A program made the position numbers and the translations under genes. From Bacteroides fragilis (GTDB lineage: Bacteria > Bacteroidota > Bacteroidia > Bacteroidales > Bacteroidaceae), in the NCBI RefSeq assembly GCF_019583405.1, contig NZ_SZUU01000002.1, positions 558,001-622,000 on the forward strand: a stretch of 64,000 bases of DNA. The letters are read 5' to 3'. Shown piece by piece: positions 508 through 14,278 of the stretch (position 1 is the first letter of the stretch; the number at the start of each line of letters is the position of its first letter). The notes beneath the pieces were generated by a model that was not told the origin of the DNA, searched no databases, and saw nothing but the letters and a program-made list of their open reading frames with translations.

Positions 508-2796
508 TCAGAAACGAATGCTGGCAGCAAATTCCACGGTAAACGGACGAATATAGCTGCCTGCCATCCAATGACCGTTATAGGATGCCGCGTCTTTTTT
601 GTCCACCAGTTCGGCACCGGCAATACTTCCTTTGGCTCCGGTCTGATTGAGGAAATTAACGACTGTGGCACTCAATGCAAGATGTTTGTTCACCGTCCAG
701 TTGACACCACCGAAAGTTTCCCAACGCCCGTTGAAGTAGTAAGCATTTTTAATGTTAGCGTACGTCTTGCTGAAATAGCGGAAGCTGGCCCAGACTCTGA
801 GGTCGTTCGTAATGTTGTAGCTGGGATCGAGTTCGACAAGCACTTTCGGAATCTCCGTCACAATATTTCCCGTGGCATTGATTTCACCTATCGTACCGTC
901 CTTGAAAGTCACACTCGTTTCATATTTCTTGTAAGTCGGGCTTTGGTAGGTAAACAGGAAATGGAAGTTAAAGCCTTTGAACGGTTTGATCACTGCATCC
1001 GTCGTCCAGCCGATGGTCTTGATGTCATAACTCAACGGAGCGGCAAGAATCTCGGTCCGGTCGTTCGGGTTAATCAGATTGAGCGTCGAGTTATTGTTTG
1101 TTTTCGAGATGTAGGAGAACAGAGAAGTCAGGCTAATCCAGTCCGTGTTATAATAGACCCCGGCACGTCCCAGGGGAACGGATATTTTATCGGTATTGGG
1201 CATAGTGGCAGGTGAAAAGTTCGACAAACCGGGACGCTGTGTGTTGTAAGTGAAGTCGGCGGTGAAACCGAACTCCCGGGTCAGTTTATAGGTAGCGGCG
1301 GCAGTGAATGCCATGTTCATCCAGTCGTAATCGAAAGGGCGGGGTGTAATCCTGACTCCTTTATCGGATACGGCGCCCAGATAATAATCTGCGAAACGGC
1401 CTACGGCATTTCCTTCTGCGTCATACACAGCCGCATTCTCTCCTTCCAGATGCTGCCATTCCAGGCGTGTACCATAATATACATTCCATTGGGGAGAAAT
1501 ATCCCAGTCGTGGGTGGCATAAACAGCTAACTTGTTTTCGTGCCCTTTGTAGTATTCCGAAGCATTCTTATTGAAATCGTAGTACACGCCGTCCGTATTC
1601 CCCTCACGTACCAGACGTTCGGGGTACTCTTCTACCGTATGGTCGTACATAGTTGTGTTCGAAGCATAATCCACTTTGTAGTGCCATTCGTTCACACCGA
1701 GCCTCCAGGTCATATTGCGATATTGGCGTGAAAGTTCGGAAGTGGCGAAGAATTCGTCAATCGTCCCCCGGTTAAAGCAAGACATGCGGCTTTGCACATA
1801 CCCTTCATACGGTTTCAACGTACCGTCCGTCCCTTTCAGAAAATAGCCGGCGGAGGCATCCTTCTGTTCCATGGCCATCGGGGTCTGATAGACATACGAA
1901 CCCAAGGCATGATCATACTTCAGGTTAACCTTCCAGTTCAGACTGTTGTCCCAAGTGTAGGTATTGAGCAAAGTCAACTGGTTTCCTTTATTCAGAGTGG
2001 CATCATAAAGATTGGTCTTTTTCAGCTCCCCCGTACGCATATCACGATAAACCATTTCTCCCGTGGCAGGCAGGTAAGAACTTGTTCCGAGGCTGAATCC
2101 CGGTATTTCTTTCACGCTGCCGTCTCCAACATAGATGAAAGGAGCGGAAGTCGTTTCATTACTCGGCCAACGGCTGTTGCTGTAGTGATAGATGGCCGAC
2201 AGCTGTCCGCGCCCTTCGCTATAATTCTTGGTCAAGGCTGCTTTATAGATTTGAGTGCGGTCCTGATTGGAAGTAAAGCGCAGTTTGAAACTGCCCGGGT
2301 CAAAGTTCTGGTAGACACTTCCACTGTAAAACCAGCCTTTCCCCATACCACCGCTGATATTGGCATCGAACTGCTGCTTGCCAAAGTGGTTGGTACTGTA
2401 ATTGACGATTCCACGGAATTTCTCAGTTCCCAACTGAGTAAAAGAGTTTACGGCATAGCCGATGTTTCCGGTAGTAATAGCGGTTTCGGAGATTTTTAAC
2501 AGCCCGACGTGTCCGAGACTGCTGTCTCCACGCCAGTGCGTATTTACGTTATGCGGATTAGAGGTATAGACTACAGGAAGTCCGTTTTCGAGTACGTTTA
2601 CGTCTCCACCAGGCAGGCCGATAGAGATTTCGCGGGGACCATTGGCGCTCGAAGCGTTCAGCATAACGTTGCGATTGCCTTCTTCTTTCGATCCGGAAGG
2701 TGTCCGGGAAGATTCTTTCTTTTCTTGTGCGGTTGTGAAGCCGGCCATCAGGAAGCAAGCCAGCAACCAAACAGCCCTTTTTTTGTTCTTCATCAT
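508..2796 (-). CDS. TonB-dependent outer-membrane receptor
   Basis: A 762-residue protein if started at the double Met (MMKNKKRAVWLL) at 2796. A longer reading from 2859 adds 21 residues that do not look like a signal peptide, so I chose the inner start. A signal peptide (WLLACFLMAGFTTAQ) is followed by a plug-like region containing NGLPVVYTSNPHNVNTHWRGD and then a long series of alternating beta strands ending in an aromatic C-terminus (FTVEFAASIRF), typical of a 22-strand barrel. There is no N-terminal carboxypeptidase-like domain and no SusD partner next to it, so it is a plain TonB receptor rather than a SusC. It probably imports an iron complex, cofactor or glycan; the substrate cannot be read from the sequence. 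It precedes the partial GH32-like gene in the same direction (gap 119 bases), but that gene has its own -7 box. Confidence 0.85.
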   Translation of the reverse strand: MMKNKKRAVWLLACFLMAGFTTAQEKKESSRTPSGSKEEGNRNVMLNASSANGPREISIGLPGGDVNVLENGLPVVYTSNPHNVNTHWRGDSSLGHVGLLKISETAITTGNIGYAVNSFTQLGTEKFRGIVNYSTNHFGKQQFDANISGGMGKGWFYSGSVYQNFDPGSFKLRFTSNQDRTQIYKAALTKNYSEGRGQLSAIYHYSNSRWPSNETTSAPFIYVGDGSVKEIPGFSLGTSSYLPATGEMVYRDMRTGELKKTNLYDATLNKGNQLTLLNTYTWDNSLNWKVNLKYDHALGSYVYQTPMAMEQKDASAGYFLKGTDGTLKPYEGYVQSRMSCFNRGTIDEFFATSELSRQYRNMTWRLGVNEWHYKVDYASNTTMYDHTVEEYPERLVREGNTDGVYYDFNKNASEYYKGHENKLAVYATHDWDISPQWNVYYGTRLEWQHLEGENAAVYDAEGNAVGRFADYYLGAVSDKGVRITPRPFDYDWMNMAFTAAATYKLTREFGFTADFTYNTQRPGLSNFSPATMPNTDKISVPLGRAGVYYNTDWISLTSLFSYISKTNNNSTLNLINPNDRTEILAAPLSYDIKTIGWTTDAVIKPFKGFNFHFLFTYQSPTYKKYETSVTFKDGTIGEINATGNIVTEIPKVLVELDPSYNITNDLRVWASFRYFSKTYANIKNAYYFNGRWETFGGVNWTVNKHLALSATVVNFLNQTGAKGSIAGAELVDKKDAASYNGHWMAGSYIRPFTVEFAASIRF

Positions 2797-2972
2797 GGTA
2801 CTTAAATTTTTTAGTTGATTGAGATTGTTTTGATGTCGCAAAGGAACGCGGAATCCCATTTCTCAACTAAAAGATTTGTTTCAAAGGCTGCTACTTTTGA
2901 TTCACCGGCACATTACATATTAATTATCAATAATTTACAAAAACAAAAAAAGAAGATATCAGATACGCAAAA

Positions 2973-3329
2973 TCACTTTCCTTTTCCTTCCAGCAGATCT
3001 GCGATCTTCTGCTTCAGGTTCAGTTTCAACATTTCATCCTGTCGCAACTCGATCTCTAAAGTGATCTTTGCATTTCCCATTTTAAACGTCTCCTCTTCAT
3101 CAACAGGGAGAGCAACTCCTTTTTTTATGGAAAATAGAACAGCAAAATCATAATCCAGTGCCAATGACAAACTATACAGCGTATCTGTATCAATGCTCTT
3201 TCGTGTCAGCAGATAGTCCACACTCTGTGGCCTCACCCCCAATCTACGGGCAAGTTCGGCTTTTGTCACCTGCCTTTCGGCCATGACCTGTTTTATCACT
3301 TCACCTATGTATACATTACTCTTCTTCAT
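2973..3329 (-). CDS. XRE-family helix-turn-helix regulator, 118 aa
   Basis: A small cytoplasmic DNA-binding protein. Residues about 8-65 form a Cro/C1-type HTH (EVIKQVMAERQVTKAELARRLGVRPQSVDYLL, with the recognition helix around RPQSVDYLL). The C-terminal half is charged and probably helical (KITLEIELRQDEML.. KQKIADLLEGKGK). It is a single-domain regulator with no visible toxin partner. It sits downstream of the surface-protein operon at 3477-5920 but is separated from it by 147 bases containing hairpins, so it is probably transcribed separately. Its target is unknown. Confidence 0.8.
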   Translation of the reverse strand: MKKSNVYIGEVIKQVMAERQVTKAELARRLGVRPQSVDYLLTRKSIDTDTLYSLSLALDYDFAVLFSIKKGVALPVDEEETFKMGNAKITLEIELRQDEMLKLNLKQKIADLLEGKGK

Positions 3330-3403
3330 ATTCTAAATACCATTCAGTCATCCAAAATGCCAATCACGTAAAAATCCCCGACAGCCGTCACGGACACCGG
3401 GGA

Positions 3404-3467
3404 GGTATAAATAAATGGACTTATTTATAAAATCACCCACCCGACCGATAGCCTATCGGCCGGATGG
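3404..3467. terminator. Hairpins downstream of the 3477 beta-barrel gene
   Basis: Two inverted repeats follow the stop codon of the minus-strand gene at 3477: CCGATAGcCTATCGG (about 3453-3467) and ATAAATAA...TTATTTAT (about 3405-3428). The second is AT-only. Together they may end transcription of the surface operon. No clean U-tract is visible, so this is tentative. Confidence 0.35.
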
Positions 3468-3476
3468 AGATAGAGG

Positions 3477-4256
3477 TCAAAACTTAAATCCGATCTTCAA
3501 TGTCGGAGCCGCCAAAACACTGTAGTTATGGCTGTCTGCCGACAGATCGCCAAGACCGGCTTGCGGATTATACGTAGTCTTGTTGTACGTATAAGCAAAC
3601 GGATCGATCTGCGCACCGATGTAAAGGGCAGGAAGAACATAGTAATCGACACCGATAGTCAGGGCGCCACGAAGATTCCAGCTCTCGGCAACCGATTTGC
3701 CCATAGAGGTCTCTTCATCATACTTCATTTCATTTTCGCCGTAAGCAAAACCTACGCGAACACCTGTATACCACATCAGGTTAGGAACACGCTTGATGTT
3801 GAAATAACGATCAACACCTGCCGACACATTATAGGCGAACGACTGGGCACTGGCTACGGCACGGTAATTAGGGATTTCTCCCATCAAATCGTCTGCCGAT
3901 CCACTTCCATTCGATTCTGAACCATCTATCGTGCCGGGAACAGCCGGATAACCGGGGTTATTCGTGAAGCTGACACCGCCACCCAAATTTAGTTTCCACT
4001 GATCTTTGAAGAACCAGCCCCCTTCGAAACCAACCATCAGCTTTTTGTCTGCCCAGTTGGTTGAGAGTGCTCTGACTTCATAGTCAGTCAGCAGCCCCGA
4101 AGGGGCTGTGACATTTGTGTAACTATTGTATCCAACAGTAGCTGCTACCGTAAAGTCACCCTTTTTAGGAGTATTGTCTTTACTACAGTTCTGCGCATTA
4201 GCTGCAAGACACATCATGGGTAGAACGGCCAACACTAAAAGTCTTTTTATTTTCAT
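3477..4256 (-). CDS. Outer-membrane beta-barrel protein, 259 aa
   Basis: A signal peptide (MKIKRLLVLAVLPMMCLAANAQ) is followed by a mature protein rich in alternating polar/aromatic strands, ending in the barrel signature LAAPTLKIGFKF with terminal Phe. The size suggests an 8-10 strand OmpW/OMP_b-brl-like barrel. It is the second gene of a two-gene unit, 47 bases behind the coiled-coil lipoprotein at 4304-5920. From memory this arrangement and size resemble BT1926, the barrel that accompanies the BT1927 S-layer protein of B. thetaiotaomicron. If so it would anchor or export the partner. The barrel is directly supported by sequence; the S-layer link is inference. Confidence 0.75.
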   Translation of the reverse strand: MKIKRLLVLAVLPMMCLAANAQNCSKDNTPKKGDFTVAATVGYNSYTNVTAPSGLLTDYEVRALSTNWADKKLMVGFEGGWFFKDQWKLNLGGGVSFTNNPGYPAVPGTIDGSESNGSGSADDLMGEIPNYRAVASAQSFAYNVSAGVDRYFNIKRVPNLMWYTGVRVGFAYGENEMKYDEETSMGKSVAESWNLRGALTIGVDYYVLPALYIGAQIDPFAYTYNKTTYNPQAGLGDLSADSHNYSVLAAPTLKIGFKF

Positions 4257-4303
4257 ACGATACTTTTTTTGATTTGTTGTTTATTTGCCGTTACTATTGG
4301 CGA

Positions 4304-5920
4304 TTATTCTGCAGAGTCACCTACTAAAGCTTTGATCTGAGCTAAATAATCATTGTAAATAGGTTCATTTACAGCCAAACTATTTTCAAGGTCAGCAATT
4401 TCTTTCTCCTTATTTGCGATAGCCTGTTCCTTCGATACAATTGAAGCAGCATTAGCTATATTTTCATCAGCAGCAGCAATAGCCTGTTTCTGAGCTAAAA
4501 TCAACTGATCGTAATCAGCCAAGCCATCAGCTATACTTTGCAATGTATAGGCCAAAGAATTTTGAACAGAATAATTATGAGAAGCTTTGTTGTATGCAAT
4601 TTGAGTCTCCAACTGTGCTTTAACGGCATTATCCATAGCAGTTATTAAAGTAGCGTATGCTGTAGCATTGTCACCCGAAACACCAGCCAATATATCATTC
4701 CAAGACTTCAAGTTTTCTTCGCTATTCGTTACACCTGTAGTAGCACTCTCAACCGCAGTTTCCAGAGGTTTTACGTAATCCCTTAAATTACCCTCCGCTA
4801 TACGCAGTTCATTTAAAGCAGTATTTTTATCTACTTCGGTTTTAGCGTCATCAAACTTCTTCTGCGCATCAGTTACAGCCTTTGTCAGATTTTTATAAGC
4901 ATCTGCAGCTTTTGCGTCTGTCAAAGCCTTATTAGCATCTGCAAGAGCAGCTTTATTTACACTTAAATTTCTTGTTTGATCAGTGATTTCTTTATTGATA
5001 GCATCTATATTAGCAGTATATTTGTAATAACCGCGAGAATATGCACTTCCAGTAGTAGCATCATCGTTTGTATAATTCACATTTTCTCCTTCAATAAAGT
5101 CTTGTACATAATAATTCGAAGTTAATCTATATATTGTCTGCATATAAAGAGATCCGTTCAAATTCGTATTTGCTTCATTAAAAGCCTGTATTGCATTTTT
5201 ATTAGCAGTATATTTTTCATTCGAAATCTGATTAAGAGCAGTCAATTTAGCATTAGCTTCCTGAGCCGCTTTCTCAGCATCAGCCTTATCTTTAGTACTA
5301 TACTTCTCATATTCTGCAATTAATGCCTGAGCAACAGCCTTATTTTTCTCCTCTTTAGCTATTGTTTCCTGATTGCTCAACTCCACTGTCACTAATTCAG
5401 CTTTCAATCTTGCCAAACCATTTTTTGCATCAATTAAATCCGTTCTATCTTGATTGATAGTTACCAGCAGCCCATTAGCTTTTCCTAACAAAGTTGTAAT
5501 TCTTGTCTTATTGGCCTGATCTACGCCATCCAAAGCAGCAATAAGGGCAGCTTTAGCAGTTTCCAAAGAAGCTTTGGCAGAATTCAATTGTGCTTCAGCA
5601 TTAATTTTAGCAGTTTCAAGTTCCGCTTCCAAAGCAGCCTGAGCTTTCTCCAATAAGATTTTTTGTTGATCTGCTTGAGCCTGCTCCAATTCAGCTTGTG
5701 CTTTTTTATAAGCGGCTTCAGCCTCTTTTATTGCAACTTCAGCCGCAGTAATAGCTTTCTTAGCATCTGCATCCGCATTATTAATGTTCGCTAAAGACTC
5801 TAATTGTTTAGCTTTCGCCATACGGACAGCTTCTACCGATGCCGATTCGTCGTTGTCTACGCAAGCTCCCAGTGACAACGCACCCAGAAGCACTGCAACC
5901 ATCATGAGTTTCTTTTTCAT
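4304..5920 (-). CDS. Alanine-rich coiled-coil surface lipoprotein (BT1927/S-layer-like)
   Basis: A 538-residue lipoprotein: lipobox LGALSLGAC gives Cys20, followed by VDNDES. An acidic stretch right after the Cys resembles the surface-export signals of Bacteroides lipoproteins. Residues about 30-230 are dominated by Ala, Lys, Glu and Gln in heptads (KAITAAEVAIKEAEAAYKK and similar), and a second long coiled coil covers about 310-520. The two are separated by a short aromatic segment (about 245-300, LYMQTIYRLTSNYYVQDF). No enzyme motif is visible. It is followed by a small beta-barrel gene in the same unit. The family resemblance, recalled and not searched, is to the BT1927-type S-layer proteins that are phase-variable in B. 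thetaiotaomicron. The promoter region here shows no convincing invertible repeat pair. Confidence 0.7.
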   Translation of the reverse strand: MKKKLMMVAVLLGALSLGACVDNDESASVEAVRMAKAKQLESLANINNADADAKKAITAAEVAIKEAEAAYKKAQAELEQAQADQQKILLEKAQAALEAELETAKINAEAQLNSAKASLETAKAALIAALDGVDQANKTRITTLLGKANGLLVTINQDRTDLIDAKNGLARLKAELVTVELSNQETIAKEEKNKAVAQALIAEYEKYSTKDKADAEKAAQEANAKLTALNQISNEKYTANKNAIQAFNEANTNLNGSLYMQTIYRLTSNYYVQDFIEGENVNYTNDDATTGSAYSRGYYKYTANIDAINKEITDQTRNLSVNKAALADANKALTDAKAADAYKNLTKAVTDAQKKFDDAKTEVDKNTALNELRIAEGNLRDYVKPLETAVESATTGVTNSEENLKSWNDILAGVSGDNATAYATLITAMDNAVKAQLETQIAYNKASHNYSVQNSLAYTLQSIADGLADYDQLILAQKQAIAAADENIANAASIVSKEQAIANKEKEIADLENSLAVNEPIYNDYLAQIKALVGDSAE

Positions 5921-5998
5921 AATCTCAATTTTTAGTGTTAATAATATAATTAATTCAATATTAGTGTAATACCTTTATTTTTCTCTATTCTATCAAAA

Positions 5999-6022
5999 TT
6001 GGCTATATTTGCCAATTGCCAA
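5999..6022. repeat. Inverted repeat in the 5' leader of the coiled-coil lipoprotein
   Basis: TTGGC-tatattt-GCCAA forms a short stem (5999-6015) and is followed at once by another TTGCCAA (6016-6022). This lies within the probable 150-base untranslated leader of the gene starting at 5920. It could be a protein-binding site or an RNA hairpin; the stem is only 5 bp. Confidence 0.35.
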
Positions 6023-6080
6023 TAGTTAACATACTTTTTAAAGATCCCTTTAATAATTGGGTATATTTAATTGTTCGGAG

Positions 6081-6111
6081 CAAATGTAGATATTATAATT
6101 ATACTAAGCAA
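6081..6111 (-). promoter_or_regulatory. Bacteroides promoter for the S-layer-like operon
   Basis: On the minus strand TACATTTG (6088-6081) is a perfect TAnnTTTG -7 box. A TTG at 6111-6109 lies 20 bases upstream, where the -33 element should be. Transcription would start near 6074, leaving a leader of about 150 bases before the ATG at 5920. Confidence 0.6.
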
Positions 6112-6336
6112 GAGTTAAGAGAAAAAAAATTAGAGTTTTTTGTATAAGTCTGAGTTTTAATGGAATCCAAGTGAAAAAAAAGCCTAAACAGCTTCTCCAT
6201 ACCCATATAATCATAAAACAAGGAAATATCCACGTAATATAGAACTGTGAAAAAGCCCTCAACATAAAAGAAAATAAGGATATAATTATTTCATATATAA
6301 TAATGTATAACATTATATACATATCAAACGAACATC

Positions 6337-6522
6337 TTACAAGCCGCTAATATATAAGATGTTGTCACAAAAAGAATCTGCAATTCCCGGAGATATGGCC
6401 TTAGATTCACTTCCGGGGATAATAAAACAGACACCAACCGAATTGGATAACTCAAGTTTAGAAAGCGGATTTACACCGCTTGAACCGGTATCCTCATACT
6501 TATATTTTTCCTCAATTAACAT
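6337..6522 (-). CDS. Possible small protein, 61 aa, function unknown
   Basis: The minus-strand frame from 6522 reads MLIEEKYKYEDTGSSG... and then a hydrophobic/polar pattern (SVGVCFIIPGSESKAISPG) with two cysteines, ending NILYISGL. The opposite strand is also open over the same stretch (6359-6631), but the minus-strand protein has a more natural composition. An AAAAAGGCG stretch lies about 10 bases before the ATG. A good promoter pointing this way lies at 6817-6847. I do not recognise the family. It may be a real small gene or the remnant of a longer one at the edge of the decayed island. Confidence 0.3.
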   Translation of the reverse strand: MLIEEKYKYEDTGSSGVNPLSKLELSNSVGVCFIIPGSESKAISPGIADSFCDNILYISGL

Positions 6523-6870
6523 TGTTAACGCCTTTTTCAGTTTGTCAGGTTCTTATGCACAAATAATAAGTCTTTTGCATTTAAAGAACTTGTTATTCAC
6601 ATCCAAAGAACAAGCTTTAACTCTGTGTTAAAACAAAGCTTTTGAAGATAGAAATTTTACTTTTTAAAGATATTGATTTTCAGATGGTTTATTCTAAAAT
6701 TCGCTTCTTCACCTCACGGATGGACTCTTCGGACGAAAGCCGGGATACTTACTTCTTTGTCAACTATAAACAACGAGTTTCTAGCATTGTGAAACCAAGT
6801 ATTTTTAAAAGATGCGCAAAGATAACGCAACCATACTAAAAGTCAAATAGTTATAAAACAGATTTTTTAG
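6523..6870. other. Island left border, no firm gene
   Basis: This 348-base stretch has a strong minus-strand promoter (6817-6847) but no intact gene. On the minus strand, between about 6650 and 6795, a frame reads LFIVDKEVSIPAFVRRVHP, then a TGA, then GEEANFRINHLKINIFKK. This looks like protein broken by a stop and may be the remains of a small gene driven by that promoter. Confidence 0.35.
6817..6847 (-). promoter_or_regulatory. Strong consensus Bacteroides promoter at the island border
   Basis: The plus strand has CAAAGATA (6817-6824) and CAAA (6844-6847) with 19 bases between. On the minus strand this is TTTG-N19-TATCTTTG, both boxes perfect. It points left, toward the broken frame at 6650-6795 and the 61-codon frame at 6337-6522, and away from the integrase remnant. 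Confidence 0.6.
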
Positions 6871-7302
6871 CGAAGTCGGACAAGAAAGCAAAGGAAAGCA
6901 TATTTGGAAGGGAGTTACGTTACCAGTTTGTATCCTGTTAAAGCAAAAACGGTCAAAACGCAGGAAACACTTATCAGCTATTGCAACCGATACAACCACC
7001 AACTTGCAGCCAGAATCGGTGTAAACATAACATTGGAAAGTTATAAACGATACGGCGTATTATTCAACCACCTACGCCGTTTTCTACGAACAAAGTACAA
7101 TCTGAGTGACATTTCGTTTCAAGCATTGGATTATTCTTTTGTCGAAGCCTTTGATTTCTACCTACGGGTACAATTGAAATTCAAGCCCAATACCATTGTA
7201 GGTATTTGGGGTAACTCAAAAGGCAGCGAGTTGCTCGCCACACCTTGCCCTTACAGGGAGCAATCGCCCTCCCCCAAGTCGGGCGATTGTAGAAATCAAG
7301 AA
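6871..7302 (+). pseudogene. Tyrosine recombinase (integrase) N-terminal fragment
   Basis: No proper ATG is present: the open frame follows a TAG at 6868 and begins mid-protein. Residues ...SYCNRYNHQLAARIG..., then YGVLFNHLRRFLRTKYNLSD and SFVEAFDFYLRVQLKFKPNT, match the SAM-like core-binding domain of Bacteroides transposon and phage integrases. Similarity stops near KPNTIVG (about 7206). The rest (GNSKGSELLATPCPYREQ...) is unrelated sequence that includes a hairpin. The catalytic Arg/His/Tyr domain is missing. The fragment is non-functional and marks past integration of a mobile element. Another recombinase fragment, C-terminal, lies at 11659-11935 on the other strand. Confidence 0.7.
7261..7289. 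repeat. 9-bp inverted repeat after the integrase fragment
   Basis: CAATCGCCC (7261-7269) and GGGCGATTG (7281-7289) are perfect inverted repeats around a C-rich loop. They sit exactly where integrase similarity has ended, so they may belong to the end of a mobile element or be an old terminator. There is no U-tract. Confidence 0.45.
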
Positions 7303-7356
7303 TAGGATTACTAAATAAATATATAAGAAAACAATGTTACTAATCTGCATTTTCAA

Positions 7357-7364
7357 TATATTTG
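7357..7364 (+). promoter_or_regulatory. -7 promoter element upstream of the sbcD remnant
   Basis: TATATTTG matches TAnnTTTG and lies about 83 bases before the ATG at 7447. No convincing -33 box is seen. Confidence 0.4.
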
Positions 7365-7446
7365 CAGTAGATGGAAATTATGGAAAGAGGAATGGAAAGA
7401 TCTTAAAATAGATGAGATAAAAAAAGAATGGTATAAATAATAATAA

Positions 7447-8208
7447 ATGAAAATAATTCATACTGCAGATTGGCATTTAGGGCAGACGTTTTTTGAATAT
7501 GACCGTAAAGGTGAACATACTCTATTTTTGACGTGGCTTCGAGAGCAAGTGAAAGTTCACGAGGTGAATGTGTTGTTTATTGCCGGAGATTTGTTTGATA
7601 TCCCAAACCTATCGGCTGAATTACAACAGCAGTACTATACTTTTTTCAAAGAGGTGACGGCGAAGAATTTCGCTCTGCAAATCATCATTATTGCCGGAAA
7701 TCATGACTCGGAAGCCCAGCTCGAAGCTATCAATTCGCTTTTGGTATCGATGGATGTTACTGTGTGGGGGATTGTCAAGCGTACCGAAGAGGGTAATATT
7801 GATTTCGACCATTTGATTGTACCGCTCGGTAAAAGAGAGTATTGTTTGGTTGTACCCTATTTGCGACAAGAGGATTATCCCGAATCAGATGCCTATGCAG
7901 AAGGAGTGCAAGTGATGTATAGAGAACTTTTTGATACACTACCTATGCCGGACAAAAGTAAACTTTTCATTGTAATGTGGTATTTGCAGGCTATGTGTTC
8001 GAAGATTTTGGAAAAGAACCGTGCCGAACGCACGATTATCGGAAGGTTAGAGTGTTTTTCGCCTGAAGTATTCGACGAAGAGATTGCATACACGGCACTC
8101 GGACACTTGCACTGTACCCAAAGGGTGTCGAGGCATGAGAATGTCCGATATGCAGGTGCTCCGTTACCGATGTTATTTGCCGAAAAAATAACAAAGAAAG
8201 TGTACTGA
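7447..8208 (+). pseudogene. sbcD: Truncated SbcD-type exonuclease subunit
   Basis: Encodes the calcineurin-like metallophosphoesterase half of the SbcCD (Mre11-Rad50-like) nuclease. Visible motifs are HTADWHLG (5-12), GDLFD (47-51), GNHDS (84-88) and GHLH (219-222). The protein stops at 253 residues, whereas the family is about 400, and the DNA-capping C-terminus is absent. The last residues (PMLFAEKITKKVY) look like a frameshift in an A-rich run: the expected continuation after FAEK is N-Y-K. The motif that normally supplies a metal-binding His (hydrophobic-His-x-x-Ala) reads MWYLQAMC, with Tyr179 in place of His. No sbcC follows; a DUF1016 gene starts 38 bases on. I read it as an inactivated copy brought in with the island. 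Confidence 0.75.
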
Positions 8209-8246
8209 AAAAAATATAATAGATTAGTATTGAAAGAATTCATGAT

Positions 8247-9278
8247 ATGGCAAAAGAAATAATAATAAATGATAGCGAGTACGCTCAAATATTACAGCTG
8301 GCAGTCTCTGAAATTCAGACCGCTCGCACTATCATTGCCCGGCAAGTAAACACTTCCGTCAATTCTGTATATTGGAATATCGGAAAGTTGCTCTTTGATA
8401 GAAATTTAGAGAGTGGATATGGTAGTGGCGTAGTTAAACGATTATCAGTGGATTTGAAAGAACAGTTTCCGGATATGGGATTGTCTCCTCGTAATCTATG
8501 GGATATGAAGCGTTTTTATGAAAGATATAAAACTTGTGATTCAAAACTGCGACAAGCTGTCGCAGTTTTACCTTGGGGACATAATTTATTATTGATAAAC
8601 AAGATAGATGACAATAATGCTGTGAAATTTTATGCAGAAGAGTGCTTGCAGAAAGGTTGGTCGAGAGATATGTTACTCAATGCAATAAAGATGAATACTT
8701 ACGCAGCTCATCAGACACAAATCAAAACGAATAATTTTGATTCGGTCTTACCTGTAGCACAAGCAGACTATGCAAATGAGGTCTTTAAAAGTTCATACAA
8801 CTTGGGGTTTCTTGGGATAACAGAACCGGTTAAAGAGCTGGAATTGGAGAAGCGGCTGGTTGCTAAAATCAGATCGTTTATACTGGAGTTAGGTAAGGGA
8901 TTTTCTTTTATTGGAAACCAATACCGTCTGGAGTATAACAACAAGGAATATGCGGTGGATATGCTATTCTTTCACAGGGGTTTGCGGTCACTTGTTGCCA
9001 TCGAATTGAAGATCGGTGCTTTTAAGGCAGAATATGTAGGCAAAATGAACCTATATCTTTCACTTCTTGATCGTTTAGAGAAAGCTGAAGGAGAGAACCC
9101 ATCAATCGGTATAATCCTTTGTGCCGACAAGGATCATTTAGATGTAGAAATCGCTTTGCAAGATATAAACAAGCCTATCGGGGTAGCTGAATATCAACTA
9201 CTGTTACCTAAAGACGAACTTCAGGCGTTGCTTATCCAAGAGATTAATTCTATGGAAGAAAATAGGGATATTCCGTAA
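8247..9278 (+). CDS. DUF1016 (YhcG-type) PDDEXK nuclease, 343 aa
   Basis: Residues 1-160 form the helical DUF1016 N-terminal domain (SVYWNIGKLLFDR.., LSPRNLWDMKRFYERY.., LPWGHNLLLINK). Residues about 175-335 form the PDDEXK nuclease-fold C-terminal domain, with Asp238 (YAVDMLFF) and Glu253-Leu-Lys255 (AIELKIGAFK) as the metal-binding core. The family occurs widely in mobile islands and next to restriction genes. Its exact substrate is not established. It is intact and starts 38 bases after the broken sbcD. The start at 8247 is preceded by an A-rich stretch. A second, clearly different DUF1016 gene lies at 13136-14278 on the opposite strand, so two paralogues bracket the radical SAM gene. Confidence 0.85.
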   Translation: MAKEIIINDSEYAQILQLAVSEIQTARTIIARQVNTSVNSVYWNIGKLLFDRNLESGYGSGVVKRLSVDLKEQFPDMGLSPRNLWDMKRFYERYKTCDSKLRQAVAVLPWGHNLLLINKIDDNNAVKFYAEECLQKGWSRDMLLNAIKMNTYAAHQTQIKTNNFDSVLPVAQADYANEVFKSSYNLGFLGITEPVKELELEKRLVAKIRSFILELGKGFSFIGNQYRLEYNNKEYAVDMLFFHRGLRSLVAIELKIGAFKAEYVGKMNLYLSLLDRLEKAEGENPSIGIILCADKDHLDVEIALQDINKPIGVAEYQLLLPKDELQALLIQEINSMEENRDIP

Positions 9279-9613
9279 ATGTTCCTCTTTCTTCACAATA
9301 GTCGTAAGCAATCTAATATTTTATTTATCAATAAAATAATCTTAATTAATCCTTTATTTTTCTGAACACAAAGATAGATTCCAAAAATAAAACGGCAACA
9401 CCAAGCCCTACGGATTCTGATAAATTTCTTCCTTTTTCGTTCCTTAAAAGAGTAAATTTATCAAAAGAGCTACTTTATTTATTCTCTCCATATAGTTAAT
9501 GCTTATCAGAGAAAAAAAGGAAAAAATATGTTGGTTACATTAGGGTACTATAGTGTCAATTCTTCTTGCTTTAGGTACTATTTTCTCAGCCAATTCGTTT
9601 TAGTGATAACCTC
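9279..9613. other. Intergenic region between convergent genes
   Basis: This 335-base AT-rich gap separates the plus-strand DUF1016 gene from the end of the minus-strand radical SAM gene. It holds a 9-base inverted repeat GATAAATTT/AAATTTATC (9419-9427 and 9454-9462) and an apparent promoter at 9369-9398 pointing left with no gene in front of it. No coding frame stands out. Confidence 0.5.
9369..9398 (-). promoter_or_regulatory. Orphan Bacteroides promoter facing the DUF1016 gene
   Basis: CAAAGATA (9369-9376) is TATCTTTG on the minus strand, and CAA (9396-9398) gives a TTG 19 bases upstream. Transcription would run antisense to the DUF1016 gene at 8247-9278. It is either a relic of a deleted gene or makes an antisense RNA. 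Confidence 0.45.
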
Positions 9614-11578
9614 CTATTTTTTCGTAGATTGAACATACTGGTTAACTAATGCTATCATTTCATTTTTTACGTCTTTGATAAAAACGGACTCACTCATTGA
9701 TTTCAATTCATCAAGCGTTACCCATTTGACCTCTGTGTGATTTATAGATTTAGGTTCACCACTTTTATACATACATAAAAAGAATACTCCTTGAATTGGT
9801 GATTGTTTATTCGGTGATATATAATAGAATCGATGGATTTTGTTAATAACTTCAACATCAAGCCCCATCTCTATTTTAAAATGCCTTTTTACGCCATCAT
9901 TAAATAATTCACCGGGTCTTAATTGTCCTCCACAACCTTCGTATTTATCAGGAAATAAATCTCTATCTGGACTTCTTCGAGCTATCAATATGGAAATTAT
10001 TTCATTCTCTTGTTTAATACAAAGTCCTGCAACATGCACCTCTACTAAATGTTTATAATCTTCTCTATTTATCAACAATGAAGTGCTATTTTTATCATTA
10101 AAATCAATACAATTTTTATGAAAATCGCCACTACTGTCTATTGAGAAAATATTTTGTCTACTTGGACATATAGTATCTTCGCAGATAGGAATAATCAATT
10201 CAATATTTTTAATAAATGAAACATCTCCAAAATCCCCATTAATTATTTTCTGATATGTTTTTAATAAATCTGTTTTTGAATTATTCCTTGTTCTTATTGG
10301 ATATGAAATAGTAATATCCTCAAATTTTTTATCTCGCCAAAAATCGATGAATTTTTTTGTATTGGAAAGAAAGTAAGAATCTCCAATGACATTAATATTA
10401 AATCGAATATTTAATGATTGACATTTTGATAAAAATTCAACTACCTTGTCAAATGCATTGTTGTTTTTTTCTATGTGTTTAGTTTTACAATAATTATCAT
10501 TCTTATATCCTTCCAAGCTAACAACAAACTTGTCAAACTTACTAAATTGATTTATTTTATCAATTAAAGCAATTTGATTATGATAATAAATCCCATTAGT
10601 GCATATGGAAAATTTCATTACTGGAGATTCGTTTATTTTTTCTACTATATCAAATAAATTACTAATAAGGAAAGGTTCTCCTCCTGATAATACCATTTTT
10701 TCTACTTGATATTTACTTATATTATTGTAAATTTTATCATAATTAACATTTATATTTATGGGATTTGTATCAACCTCTATGTCAATAAAACAATGGCGAC
10801 AATGTGTAGAACAATGATGTGTCATTCTCCAACAGACTGTTTTAATCTTGTCATTAAATCTACATAATCTAATATTTGAAGTTGGATAATTAGTCTTTTT
10901 GTATAGCATAATTAATTTATTGTAAACGTATTTCAAATCTTTATATACGCTTAAATTTTCAAACTCGTCAATATCTTTAAATATTAACTTAGGATTTTTT
11001 TGCAGATTCTTTAATTTGAAAGCATAATACATGGAAATATGATATTTTTCTTTTGATGTTTTATTATCTCCAAATTCTTGTATCATAAAAAAAGGAGGAG
11101 GCGTGATATTATGATTCAAATATTCTCTGAAGAATTTTTTTTCTTCATCTGTCTTCAATAAATCCTTAAGTAAATATTCTCTATTATTTCCAGAATAAGA
11201 TAGGTCAATCAATTCAATATCTATATCTTCCAGCCCTGTTTCTTTTCGTATTGTTTCAATCATTTTTTTAAATGGTGTTTCCAAGGACATATTTAGCATT
11301 GGCTTATTCGTTCTATAATAAGAACCAGGCTGCATATGTAAACCGTTATTGTTTTTTATCAATAACATCTTGTTATTTTCATCAATAATTATTGCAGATA
11401 CAGCAAATACCCCCTTTGGATGTAAAATATGTAGTCTAAAAATAGTATAATACGCCGAACATATAATAAATATAAATATACCTGTTAGTATGTATATACT
11501 ACCACAGTCATTTGCGATAGCGTAAAGGAGATTACCTATGCTAAAGATTACTGGTATCCAATCTAGTATCAATTTCAT
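9614..11578 (-). CDS. Membrane-anchored NUDIX - radical SAM - NUDIX protein
   Basis: A 654-residue protein with an unusual domain order. Residues 5-20 and 28-47 are two hydrophobic helices. Residues about 56-215 look like a divergent NUDIX domain (GVFAVSAIIIDENNKMLLIK, then IETIRKETGLED in place of the usual Nudix box). Residues about 245-440 are a radical SAM core with C256-x3-C260-x2-C263 for the [4Fe-4S] cluster, GGEPF at 299-303 and CTNG at 326-329. C466, C471 and C490 (ICEDTICPSR.., HKNC) resemble a twitch/SPASM-type second cluster site. Residues about 512-645 are a second NUDIX domain with a Nudix-like box at 551-573 (G-x5-E then RHFKIEMGL), in which one of the catalytic glutamates is Ile. 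Base composition is far more AT-rich than the flanking core genes, which points to transfer. It stands alone on its strand inside the decayed island. The reaction is unknown; a nucleotide-derived substrate is plausible from the NUDIX domains. Confidence 0.75.
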   Translation of the reverse strand: MKLILDWIPVIFSIGNLLYAIANDCGSIYILTGIFIFIICSAYYTIFRLHILHPKGVFAVSAIIIDENNKMLLIKNNNGLHMQPGSYYRTNKPMLNMSLETPFKKMIETIRKETGLEDIDIELIDLSYSGNNREYLLKDLLKTDEEKKFFREYLNHNITPPPFFMIQEFGDNKTSKEKYHISMYYAFKLKNLQKNPKLIFKDIDEFENLSVYKDLKYVYNKLIMLYKKTNYPTSNIRLCRFNDKIKTVCWRMTHHCSTHCRHCFIDIEVDTNPININVNYDKIYNNISKYQVEKMVLSGGEPFLISNLFDIVEKINESPVMKFSICTNGIYYHNQIALIDKINQFSKFDKFVVSLEGYKNDNYCKTKHIEKNNNAFDKVVEFLSKCQSLNIRFNINVIGDSYFLSNTKKFIDFWRDKKFEDITISYPIRTRNNSKTDLLKTYQKIINGDFGDVSFIKNIELIIPICEDTICPSRQNIFSIDSSGDFHKNCIDFNDKNSTSLLINREDYKHLVEVHVAGLCIKQENEIISILIARRSPDRDLFPDKYEGCGGQLRPGELFNDGVKRHFKIEMGLDVEVINKIHRFYYISPNKQSPIQGVFFLCMYKSGEPKSINHTEVKWVTLDELKSMSESVFIKDVKNEMIALVNQYVQSTKK

Positions 11579-11616: not shown

Positions 11617-11624
11617 CAAAAATA
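11617..11624 (-). promoter_or_regulatory. -7 promoter element for the NUDIX-rSAM-NUDIX gene
   Basis: CAAAAATA on the plus strand is TATTTTTG on the minus strand, matching TAnnTTTG, about 39 bases upstream of the ATG at 11578. A TATATTTG box on the plus strand (11637-11644) points the other way, so the short gap may hold divergent promoters. Confidence 0.45.
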
Positions 11625-11658: not shown

Positions 11659-11935
11659 TTATTGTTTAGCCAAGCTATACTTTTTTTCAATCCGCTCCGC
11701 AAGGTTAGTCATATCCTCATTAATTTTGGTACGGGTTATATCCGCATAGATTTGAGTAGTGGAAATGCTTCGATGTCCTAATGTTTGGCTTATCGTTTCT
11801 ATTGGAACACCCATTGAAAGCCAAGAGTTGCATAGCTATGTCTTGCCTTGTGATAGGTTAGCCGCTTCTCGATATTGGCTGTTTTGGCTATCTTTTTCAA
11901 CTGAATATCAGCATTTTCTATTGTGCACAACCTAA
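11659..11935 (-). pseudogene. Tyrosine recombinase C-terminal fragment with frameshift
   Basis: Read on the minus strand, IENADIQLKKIAKTANIEKR leads into LTYHKARHSYATLG, the H-x-x-R box of tyrosine recombinases. The frame then slips by one base. The new frame reads SMGVPIETISQTLGHRSISTTQ and IYADITRTKINEDM, covering the second His (LGH) and the catalytic Tyr (QIYA), and ends in a TAA at 11659-11661. The N-terminal part is missing: to the right the sequence changes to a different element. The fragment cannot make an active enzyme. It may be the other half of an integrase such as the one at 6871-7302, or come from a separate element. Confidence 0.7.
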
Positions 11936-12815
11936 AGACCTTTCCATCAAGCCCGGCAAAAGCCGTATTCCGGTATTTCTCAATAAGTAGTCCAGATCCG
12001 AAAAGGGGAAGATCCCGAAGTGGAAGGCAAAAAACTGGTGAAGAACAGCGAACTCAACGATGAAAGGCGTATCGCCAAACTTGCCCGCCGGTATAAGTTC
12101 GACGAACACCAGCTTCCGTGGAAAGAACTCGCCGTATTGGGAATTGACAAGCAACTCTTGTTCGACAACCATTGCATGGGTGAGATACTGAAAGGAAGGA
12201 TTACCTCAATGGCTTTCCCCATCAGCAAGGAAGTGAACGGTGAAAAGAAGGATATGGAGGAAGCCTGTTTCCTCTGCATCAAGGGCGAGGATGGCAAGGT
12301 GCAACTGAAAAACCCTAAGCAGGCTCGACAAACCGCAGTATGACCTACCTGCCTATAAGGGAATATTCACGGACGAGGAAAAGCTGTCGCTTAAAGACAC
12401 TGGAACTTTGGGGGCAGTCAAGGAGATGAAGGACACCCATACAGGAACGGTCTGCAACTGTTATGTATCTTTCCATGAACCGAGCAACCGTATCATTACC
12501 ATGCCGGTGGATGCTATCAAGATACCCGATTACATATACAGTAAAAGACTGGATGACAAACAGAAGCAAATCCTTGCGTCAGGAGGCCGGCTTCCCATCA
12601 ACGACATACAACGCAAAAACGACACACTGCTTTCCGGGGTTGCTTTCGTCGATCCGAGAATAATGGACATCGCATTCAAGCAGTCCGGCGAACAGCTGAA
12701 AGTCAACGACACTATCATGGGTGCCAAAATCACGCCTGAACAGAAGAAGATGCTCCAGAACCATGAAATGGTCTTCTTCCAATTCATGAAGCCTTGCAAT
12801 AATGGCATCTATATT
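11936..12815 (+). pseudogene. DUF3945-like conjugative-element protein, frameshifted
   Basis: Three open pieces on the plus strand read as one protein. The first (QPKDLSIKPGKSRIPVFLNK) ends in TAG at 11988. The second (about 11990-12343) contains LARRYKFDEHQLPWKELAVLG and ITSMAFPISKEVNGEKKDM. The third (about 12324-12815) contains YKGIFTDEEKLSLKDTGTLG and SKRLDDKQKQILASGGRLP. These resemble the repeated DUF4099/DUF3945 modules of Bacteroides conjugative and mobilizable elements. At least two frameshifts separate the pieces. The sequence stops abruptly after KMLQNHEMVFFQFM, where the family normally continues. The GC content is higher than in the radical SAM gene beside it, so the island is a mosaic. 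Non-functional. Confidence 0.6.
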
Positions 12816-13135: not shown

Positions 13136-14278
13136 TTAAAGAAGTTTTTCTAATTCTTCTACAGGAGGGAGCAGTCTCTTTAGACGCTCATCCATATCGG
13201 CAGTAGTCTTATATGTCGCCACACCCATAGGCTTGTCATAGTCTTGGATTACATACTCAACAAATTTCTTATTGGCACTCTTGCAAAGAATGATTCCTAT
13301 AGACGGATTCTCATTAGGCTTGCGTACTTCATCATCCAAAATACGCAGATATGCCGCCAATTGACCTAAATACGAGGTCTTGAACGGACCATCTTTCAAT
13401 TCCACACAAACAAGAGCAGCCAACTCTCTATTGAAGAATAGCAAGTCCGGAAACTCCTCTACACCGAATTTTTCCAAATGATATTGGTTGCCTACAAATG
13501 TAAAATCCTTGCCGAATGTCATAATAAACTCTTTCACATTCTGCACTATGCTTTGTTCGATTACCCGTTCATCTCTATCCTTGTCCCTAACAAACAACTC
13601 TTCGGTGTTGATAAAGTCAAGCAGATATTCATCTTTGAACATCGTGATTGCACGATATGCCTGTAGCTGACCAGGGATTGTTTTCTTGAAATTATTTGTC
13701 AACTCACCTTGATGACTATACAAATCGTCATTTATCATTCGTTCCAAATCCTCTACCTTTGCTTTTGTGTCAGCTGCGAATTGAATGTAGAATTTTCGTT
13801 GCTCTGTATCCTTGACTTTGCTGATGATAACATAATGGTGGGTAAAACCAATGTTCATAAATGCTGCAATCGGGAAATTTGCATCTATCTTAAACTGCAC
13901 TGTAGGCAATTCATTCGTTCCAACGAACGAATTATGCTTTTCGCTTATTAAATTGTTCGTTTCAACGAACGAATTGTCCGAAAGCATCTGCCACTCCTCA
14001 TAGAATGTACGCATCTTTCGTAAGCTTGCTGCGGAAAAGCCTCTTAACCCGGGTAATTCTTTACGAAGTTGTTCGCTGATTGCTTCAATGAATCCCTTGC
14101 CCCAATTCTTATTGCGGGTATTCACAGAGACAAATCGTCCAATGCCGTAGTAAAGTGCTAATTGTTCTTGGTTAATTATAGCCAAGGCTCGTTGTTGGCT
14201 TTGCAAAATCGCACCTTTAATTGCTTGAACAGCATTGGTGAGTTCTGTATATTTCATTGTATTAATAATATTGCTCAT
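13136..14278 (-). CDS. DUF1016 (YhcG-type) PDDEXK nuclease, 380 aa
   Basis: Residues about 1-190 are the DUF1016 helical N-terminal domain (LALYYGIGRFVSVNTRNKNW.., FSAASLRKMRTFYEEW). Residues about 235-370 are the nuclease-fold domain with Asp278 (EEFPDLLFF) and Glu293-Leu-Lys295 (VCVELKDGPF). It is a distinct paralogue of the 343-aa protein at 8247-9278. Between the two halves of the N-terminal domain the peptide NSFVETNN is repeated as NSFVGTNE (102-109 and 116-123). At DNA level these are two palindromic units (13913-13932 and 13955-13970), suggesting small palindromic inserts tolerated in frame. It is followed after 10 bases by the broken XRE gene. An upstream inner Met (MKYTEL, residue 8) is a possible alternative start. 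Confidence 0.85.
   Translation of the reverse strand: MSNIINTMKYTELTNAVQAIKGAILQSQQRALAIINQEQLALYYGIGRFVSVNTRNKNWGKGFIEAISEQLRKELPGLRGFSAASLRKMRTFYEEWQMLSDNSFVETNNLISEKHNSFVGTNELPTVQFKIDANFPIAAFMNIGFTHHYVIISKVKDTEQRKFYIQFAADTKAKVEDLERMINDDLYSHQGELTNNFKKTIPGQLQAYRAITMFKDEYLLDFINTEELFVRDKDRDERVIEQSIVQNVKEFIMTFGKDFTFVGNQYHLEKFGVEEFPDLLFFNRELAALVCVELKDGPFKTSYLGQLAAYLRILDDEVRKPNENPSIGIILCKSANKKFVEYVIQDYDKPMGVATYKTTADMDERLKRLLPPVEELEKLL
13913..13970. repeat. Two palindromic units inside the DUF1016 coding region
   Basis: ATTCGTTC-caac-GAACGAAT (13913-13932) and GTTCGTT-tc-AACGAAC (13955-13970) are related palindromes in direct repetition, about 40 bases apart, encoding the repeated peptide NSFV(E/G)TN. 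Confidence 0.6.

Follow-up and report, generated by a model that had tools for sequence, protein, structure and literature searches.

The 64,000-nucleotide stretch analysed here, hereafter the window, belongs to Bacteroides fragilis (contig NZ_SZUU01000002.1, positions 558,001 to 622,000) and contains a gene for a 654-amino-acid protein in which a degenerate NUDIX domain, preceded in its relatives by a class III cyclase-type domain, is joined to a radical SAM core behind a predicted membrane hairpin. New here are the joining of this cyclase-fused NUDIX family to a radical SAM enzyme and the location of the gene in what appears to be a slot for accessory genes within an integrative element. We tentatively read the gene as accessory cargo of such an element, encoding a membrane-tethered, nucleotide-gated radical SAM enzyme with the NUDIX domain as its switch, a nucleotide-type chemistry and a role in defence or stress, a reading to which we would give somewhat less than an even chance.

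The gene consists of a single open reading frame (ORF) without internal stop, and the chance of a stop-free frame of 654 codons at its composition was computed at about 1e-28. Its guanine-cytosine (GC) content of 27.0% compares with 44.3% over the whole window, where 3 of 621 stretches of equal length have a GC content as low, some of the three overlapping the gene itself; the intact, AT-rich frame described by the first-pass annotation is therefore confirmed. The upstream element TATTTTTG matches TAnnTTTG, which we take to be the consensus of the Bacteroidota -7 promoter element. Pfam recognised two domains above its curated cut-offs, Radical_SAM (Table 1) and NUDIX (residues 520-625, E 3.6e-9), and the unusual domain order reported at first held in outline, no full-length relative being found.

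The C-terminal NUDIX domain scores 37.2 bits with Pfam (cut-off 21.1), and its AlphaFold model has a predicted local distance difference test (pLDDT) score of 70-96 in blocks of ten residues, about 90 across the core. The model superposes on MutT2 (5zrp) with a Z of 16.2 and a root-mean-square deviation of 2.4 over 128 aligned residues (Foldseek E 2.2e-8). Structure matches include nucleotide-binding NUDIX enzymes and the ADP-ribose sensor NrtR (PDB 3gz8, with ADP-ribose according to its PDB title), taken as a precedent for a ligand-sensing NUDIX domain; none of the 50 matches listed extends before model residue 455, and they are not informative on the fold of that part. The classical NUDIX box reads Gx5Ex7REUxEExGU. 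The corresponding stretch is here G551-QLRPG-E557-LFNDGVK-R565-H566-F-K-I569-E570-M-G-L, in which E557, E570, G572 and L573 are retained and two canonical acidic positions are replaced, His566 standing where 'RE' has its Glu and Ile569 where 'EE' begins, so that the domain does not have the canonical box of a NUDIX hydrolase. The first-pass annotation had rightly seen the kept first Glu and the Ile, but had counted one altered position only, H566 being altered too. A PADLOC match to PDC-S07 (E 2.8e-15, 54.2 bits) was rejected as a sign of defence because MutT scores nearly as high (47.7 bits).

In a whole-protein search of plasmids, residues 504-648 were matched by an ORF of a Methylobacterium aquaticum plasmid (47%, E 2e-28), the NUDIX domains being 47-48% identical in the whole-protein and C-terminal-domain searches. 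This ORF starts with a class III cyclase domain (Pfam Guanylate_cyc, E 8.4e-7); an assignment to PycC was dropped, the match being weak only (E 0.0018). Searching genome_contigs with both NUDIX domains, that of the gene and that of Methylobacterium, gave 12 loci: six encode cyclase-NUDIX proteins, five encode short NUDIX proteins that stand alone and have an 'RQ' box, and the last is a remote match. The six cyclase-NUDIX loci belong to Desulfuromonadales, Methanosarcinales, ANME-2, Cloacimonadota and two genomes labelled as delta-proteobacteria, and show 41-60% tblastn identity to the C-terminal NUDIX of the window protein. A class III cyclase-type domain precedes NUDIX in all seven relatives, according to an alignment of the seven and a Pfam run on the Methylobacterium one, and the cyclase residues D19, K57, D61, N137 and R141 (L024 numbering) are invariant among them; D19 and D61 are presumably the metal-binding Asp pair, K57 the base-selecting Lys and N137/R141 the Asn-Arg pair of the cyclase. 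No cyclase match was obtained in the 654-residue protein (Pfam, E<=1), which shares with the cyclase-NUDIX proteins the linker RE...EVHVAG. A His at the position of H566 is common to the eight NUDIX domains; each of them lacks the first Glu of 'EE' but retains the second, and E557, H515, C520, C549, C602 and H614 are also invariant. No name for the cyclase-NUDIX proteins was found in the literature searches.

We consider that the C-terminal NUDIX is probably non-hydrolytic and ligand-sensing. It might instead be an enzyme with a rewired chemistry, using His566 and Glu570 as metal ligand or base to cleave the product or the substrate of the radical SAM core, which would make the protein a two-step nucleotide converter. 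With E557, E570 and the His unchanged across the eight domains, the site seems to be under constraint and not in decay, and the catalytic base is described as varying among NUDIX enzymes in PMC4974056. However, two canonical acidic positions are replaced in all eight and, according to the same source, the NUDT9H domain of TRPM2, which has box substitutions, binds without hydrolysing; we regard the rewired enzyme as unlikely.

The tree of these domains, with the stand-alone L030-L034 as outgroup and L035 (28% identity) left out, places the window row with the seven cyclase rows and splits them from the five stand-alone rows at 100/99. This split is the one well-supported branch of ten inner branches, L030 and L034 are long, and the tree does not fix the inner place of the window row. 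The structure alignment (A3) covers seven of the eight family members, the window's included, L022 being left out. At strict thresholds, a search of 395 genomes of the class found the family in the query genome alone (E<=1e-12); likewise it was found in none but the Desulfuromonadales genome G824 among 244 relatives of G824 and in none but the ANME-2 genome G826 among 149 genomes of its class (both E<=1e-20). This patchy distribution, together with an identity of 39-56% over the aligned domain across this bacterium, archaea and deltaproteobacteria, would point to horizontal transfer. Because the linker is kept, the simplest reading would be that the radical SAM protein arose by a swap of the cyclase for a radical SAM core, and the exchange may also have run in the opposite direction. 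Genome G828 contains, besides its cyclase-NUDIX gene, two weaker profile matches (E 6.9e-15) in 230-codon frames (C49:14214-14567 and C351:2566-2919). The stand-alone L030-L034 (CGGG..., RQ box), which have a related domain, come from Aenigmatarchaeota, Moranbacteria, Paceibacterota, Alphaproteobacteria and Terriglobia.

The radical SAM core of the first-pass annotation is confirmed by Pfam (48.9 bits, cut-off 29.5) and by the C-x3-C-x2-C motif at residues 256/260/263, which place it in the radical SAM superfamily. Among the best 25 of 46 NCBIfam matches, the highest scores (cut-offs in brackets) are those of MoaA with 52.3 (325.25), NirJ with 50.2 (515.45), NirJ2 with 49.5 (500) and viperin with 49.1 bits (180). 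None of the MoaA models reaches its cut-off (52.3/325.25, 48.8/231 and 44.5/284.05 bits). Viperins had been named at first as an example of radical SAM enzymes acting on nucleotides; by its score on NF038283 the core falls outside viperin/SAND; in PADLOC, pVip is the best radical SAM match of the core alone (58.2 bits, E 2e-16). Within the phylum, 15 of 247 genomes, the own genome included, match the core at E<=1e-6. The three further cysteines reported at positions 466, 471 and 490 are indeed present, in a region of low pLDDT where Pfam gives no SPASM match, and could, from the sequence, hold an auxiliary iron-sulphur (Fe-S) cluster.

These data also bear on the explanation that the protein is a peptide or cofactor maturase, a radical SAM/twitch enzyme modifying a peptide or building a cofactor with NUDIX as a docking or structural module. 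The radical SAM scores include NirJ, StsB, WgkB and, weakly, PqqE (E 0.094), the three cysteines look SPASM/twitch-like, and other phylum matches, read by eye, resemble SPASM-type ORFs. On the other hand, no precursor-peptide or cofactor genes were noticed adjacent among the listed ORFs of at least 60 amino acids, no dedicated search having been made, and the fusion of the NUDIX family to nucleotide cyclases points to nucleotides. A maturase appears improbable to us.

At the N-terminus, 19-residue windows starting at residues 3-4 and 20-34 have a mean hydropathy above 1.6, and the model helices agree with the two membrane helices claimed at first, which stand as a prediction. The residues following the second helix are basic, hence the rest of the protein probably lies in the cytoplasm. 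Read by eye, the region behind the hairpin has two paired strands (AIIIDENNKMLLIKNN) and, at E100...E113-T-G-L, a stretch resembling a NUDIX box. Residues 1-231 give no match at E<=10 in Pfam and PADLOC, and the sole NCBIfam match of residues 1-232 at E<=0.1 is TIGR02391, a non-NUDIX model (residues 102-151, E 0.0083, 16.2 bits, cut-off 39.45). A home-made NUDIX hidden Markov model scores 1.8 bits, equalled by 24 of 2000 shuffles (best shuffle 6.6), hhalign of a NUDIX profile gives a probability of 0.1%, and the box-like pattern at residue 100, picked after the sequence was seen, is present in 46 of 20000 shuffles. AlphaFold models this part poorly (pLDDT mostly below 50; mean 45.5 for the region modelled alone). 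The region has no plasmid match at E<=1, a weak match to phrog_23409 (E 0.22) and matches in 2 of 395 phylum genomes, its own gene among them; L037 (E 9.5e-4) was rejected as a relative, reading by eye as a PAS-type histidine kinase. The first-pass annotation had read NUDIX domains at both ends, the N-terminal one as a divergent NUDIX-like domain, and proposed profile searches by region and a structure prediction as checks: the radical SAM core and the C-terminal NUDIX were matched, the latter with a confident fold and a structure match as well, but residues 1-231 gave no NUDIX match and a low-confidence model, and the N-terminal NUDIX domain is a plausible candidate only.

The context of the gene was compared with other copies of a conserved sequence lying 3' of it. 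The order in the window is the conserved sequence, the gene about 70-80 nucleotides further on, and an integrase remnant. At least five of the other places with this sequence were retrieved from 40 genus genomes and four from 301 family genomes (own genome included in both), one of the four being a second site in the same genome (L051). Both sides of the element are recognisable at four of the nine places (L051, L046, L047 and L052), which have DUF5712 and GNAT-like genes on one side and tandem, same-direction tyrosine integrases on the other. Pfam finds DUF5712 on the protein of L051 and Acetyltransf_1 on the GNAT-like copy of L052, but not on the shorter frame of L051; at L047 neither the DUF5712 frame nor the integrase frames are intact. 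A relaxase identity of the DUF5712 protein, which had rested on reading by eye, was withdrawn. In L051 (7025-8212, C3 ~306 kb) the cargo is a gene of 395 amino acids whose residues 33-145 match PD-T7-5 (E 1e-12), without a Pfam match, and in L047 it consists of AAA_31 and RelA_SpoT genes. Since the window and these two loci keep the order conserved sequence, cargo, integrase, the gene would occupy an accessory slot, some copies of which carry genes of the defence or toxin type, an argument of guilt by association drawn from few cases.

Of the remaining five places, L053 has a helix-turn-helix gene and an IrrE-like peptidase gene (Peptidase_M78) followed by a more distant integrase (27-28%). 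At L048 the conserved sequence lies 30 nucleotides from the end of an RT_UG24 (DRT) gene (E 5e-284) whose first part is in another frame, no integrase of the slot type being found there. No slot-type integrase lies on the cargo side of L049, L050 and L054 either; the cargo side of L050 has a PDC-S05 gene, and on those of L049 and L054 no defence gene was recognised (two ORFs scanned with PADLOC, neither matched). The GmrSD gene of L050 was dropped as slot cargo, as it lies across the conserved sequence, on its other side; at 2101-9746 of this locus, genes for GmrSD, PDC-S05, PNKP-ligase and a PNKP-type kinase/phosphatase lie close together. At L048, L049, L050 and L054, the part of the conserved sequence corresponding to window positions 9347-9536 (about 150-200 nucleotides) is 70-80% conserved in the absence of a slot-type integrase on the cargo side; an element end, a regulatory RNA and a terminator are candidate roles for it.

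Combining these results, we suggest that the C-terminal NUDIX would no longer hydrolyse and would bind a nucleotide-type ligand, and that it would switch the enzyme preceding it, a cyclase in the seven relatives and the radical SAM core here. This core, nearest by score to MoaA, NirJ and viperin, would alter a nucleotide or some small molecule related to one, and the product or a conformational change would act at the membrane hairpin, either an anchor or an effector. Biologically, the protein would most likely serve in phage defence or in stress signalling; the first-pass guess of defence or a modified nucleotide is upheld in outline together with its island setting, but the support for defence is the slot context only, namely the PD-T7-5-like gene of L051, AAA_31 with RelA/SpoT in L047 and RT_UG24 beside the conserved sequence in L048. 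A broader version, in which the protein would represent a new family of single-gene nucleotide-signalling (immune) proteins with a degenerate NUDIX receiver fused to exchangeable enzymes that modify nucleotides, mostly a class III cyclase and here radical SAM, its radical SAM form joining sensing, the making of a modified nucleotide and a membrane effector in a single polypeptide, appears doubtful to us.

Full-length relatives were sought in several collections. The own genome has no second full-length copy (one weak NUDIX-only match, E 0.08), and 28 of 100 relatives, own included, match at E<=0.001, the matches listed covering single domains, the own gene aside. In genome_contigs none of 18 pattern stretches was confirmed as a full-length relative and in viral_contigs no relative was confirmed in any scan; such pattern scans detect close relatives only and may miss distant full-length genes. 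No full-length match was found in phages, and none of six plasmid records covers 80%. With the C-terminal domain alone, six of seven plasmid records are ordinary weak NUDIX matches (E 1e-5 or worse), and six weak phage matches have E values of 8e-4 to 9e-3. Full-text literature searches, which cover subscription papers and preprints poorly, returned nothing on NUDIX with radical SAM or a cyclase in defence, nor on names of the fusion, the novelty of which is provisional; the one item that did come up was a paper on NudC. That the gene is a chance chimera or a passenger heading for decay, an intact but functionless orphan in a dead element, is the least probable explanation we considered: one copy was found, the element around it is decayed and no relative is available to show selection, but the gene retains the motif residues of both the radical SAM core and the NUDIX family, the frame is free of stops at so low a GC content and a promoter-like element lies upstream.

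Several observations weigh against the nucleotide-gated enzyme that we prefer. Having no full-length relative, the gene allowed neither a selection test nor a deep alignment, and no PADLOC model covers the full protein. The substrate class is not fixed, since models of MoaA, NirJ, viperin and of peptide maturases all score on the core, each far under its cut-off, and the top phylum match outside the own genome, a MoaA (Mob_synth_C in Pfam), is only 25% identical. Two of the four recognisable slots (L046 and L052) are empty, the RelA/SpoT gene of L047 has no PADLOC match and its AAA_31 gene only weakly matches the candidate PDC-M28B. The survey of homologue neighbourhoods, another proposed check, covered the cyclase-NUDIX relatives and, in ORFs read by eye, revealed neither a neighbour that recurs nor an obvious defence island. 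Any link to Cap16 is unproven because the N-terminal NUDIX-like region itself is.

Table 1. Coordinates of the gene, its parts, the slot edges and the cyclase-NUDIX relatives (window positions unless a locus is named)
Feature	Position	Strand	Basis or remark
Whole gene, 654 amino acids	9614..11578	-	two-transmembrane (2TM) hairpin, NUDIX-like region, radical SAM, twitch-like Cys region, degenerate NUDIX
Promoter-like element TATTTTTG	11617..11624	-	fits Bacteroidota -7 element; ATG 38 nucleotides downstream
Two predicted membrane helices, residues 2-49	11432..11575	-	hydropathy; model helices 2-22 and 29-51
NUDIX-like region, residues 55-232	10883..11416	-	box-like E100-x9-I110-x2-E113-x-G115-L116; NUDIX identity unproven
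Radical SAM core, residues 252-396	10391..10825	-	PF04055 E 1.1e-12; CSTHCRHC 256-263, SGGEP 298-302
C-x4-C-x18-C, residues 466-490	10109..10183	-	possible auxiliary Fe-S (twitch/SPASM-like) site, from sequence
Degenerate NUDIX, residues 513-654	9617..10042	-	Pfam, AlphaFold, structure search, alignment with cyclase-NUDIX family
Conserved sequence, slot edge	9296..9544	.	70-86% identical over 148-246 nucleotides at 9 other places
Tyrosine integrase remnant, other slot edge	11665..12026	-	amino acids 296-412 of L051 integrase; tblastn 81-82%, two frames
Cyclase-NUDIX	L022 9392-10462
Cyclase-NUDIX	L024 2717-3763
Cyclase-NUDIX	L025 143-1228
Cyclase-NUDIX	L026 9407-10423
Cyclase-NUDIX	L027 3501-4559
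Cyclase-NUDIX	L028 ~9404-10432
Cyclase-NUDIX	L029 3315-4436

Among the neighbours in the window, DUF1016/YhcG PDDEXK nuclease genes (PADLOC candidate PDC-S02) flank the gene on both sides (8247-9278 on the forward and 13136-14278 on the reverse strand); beyond the conserved sequence there is neither a DUF5712 nor a GNAT-like gene, but one of these two. The neighbours had been described as decayed, which fits the broken integrase and the DUF4099, DUF3945 and SbcD-like ORFs, which look shortened in our reading, but not the two DUF1016/YhcG genes, which look complete. The SbcD-like metallophosphoesterase (7447-8208, forward strand, 253 amino acids), probably cut short, lies between an integrase fragment and a DUF1016 gene. 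A protein of 538 amino acids (4304-5920, reverse strand) has a lipoprotein-like start and, by eye, a long coiled-coil-like stretch rich in Ala, Lys and Glu, with no Pfam match at E<=0.001.

The present results suggest a form of nucleotide signalling not studied so far and perhaps directed against phages. If so, the degenerate NUDIX would be a reusable receiver of nucleotide signals, mounted on cyclases in archaea and bacteria and on a radical SAM enzyme here, and radical SAM chemistry would be added to the enzymes that, directly controlled by a ligand, make nucleotides for immunity or stress. Among known systems, MoaA (GTP 3',8-cyclase) shares the radical SAM core and is the best match in NCBIfam and in the phylum sample. 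It ends in Gly-Gly and has its own Cys spacing, whereas the window protein has C-x4-C-x18-C, no C-terminal Gly-Gly, no Mob_synth_C match and a score far under the cut-off. The prokaryotic viperins/SAND (pVip) resemble it by the CxxxCxxC core, which viperin-type nucleotide dehydratases carry according to PMC9642334, and by the best PADLOC radical SAM match; the window protein differs by its low NCBIfam score, its extra Cys triad and the fused NUDIX and membrane hairpin. Cap16 of CBASS, a membrane effector with a NUDIX domain whose toxicity survives NUDIX mutation (PMC10419184), has two N-terminal transmembrane helices followed by a NUDIX domain, comparable to the predicted helices and possible NUDIX-like region here; the window protein has in addition a radical SAM core and a second NUDIX, and no CD-NTase was found among seven neighbouring ORFs scanned. 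TRPM2 NUDT9H, a NUDIX domain of a membrane protein that has lost catalysis and senses a ligand (PMC4974056), and NrtR (PDB 3gz8) also carry a NUDIX fold on a larger regulated protein, with a substituted box in TRPM2, but their partner domains are others. Cyclases are presented as exchangeable signal-making domains of bacterial conflict systems in PMC7159879. The closest likeness is with the cyclase-NUDIX proteins (L022, L024-L029), patchily distributed and without a recurring neighbour seen, which share the C-terminal domain, the degenerate box and the linker but have an intact class III cyclase in front instead of a radical SAM core and, by eye, ORFs beginning at or near the cyclase with no N-terminal 2TM hairpin seen. 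With a predicted catalytic cyclase and a predicted dead NUDIX, and not met in the literature searches made, they constitute a small testable family.

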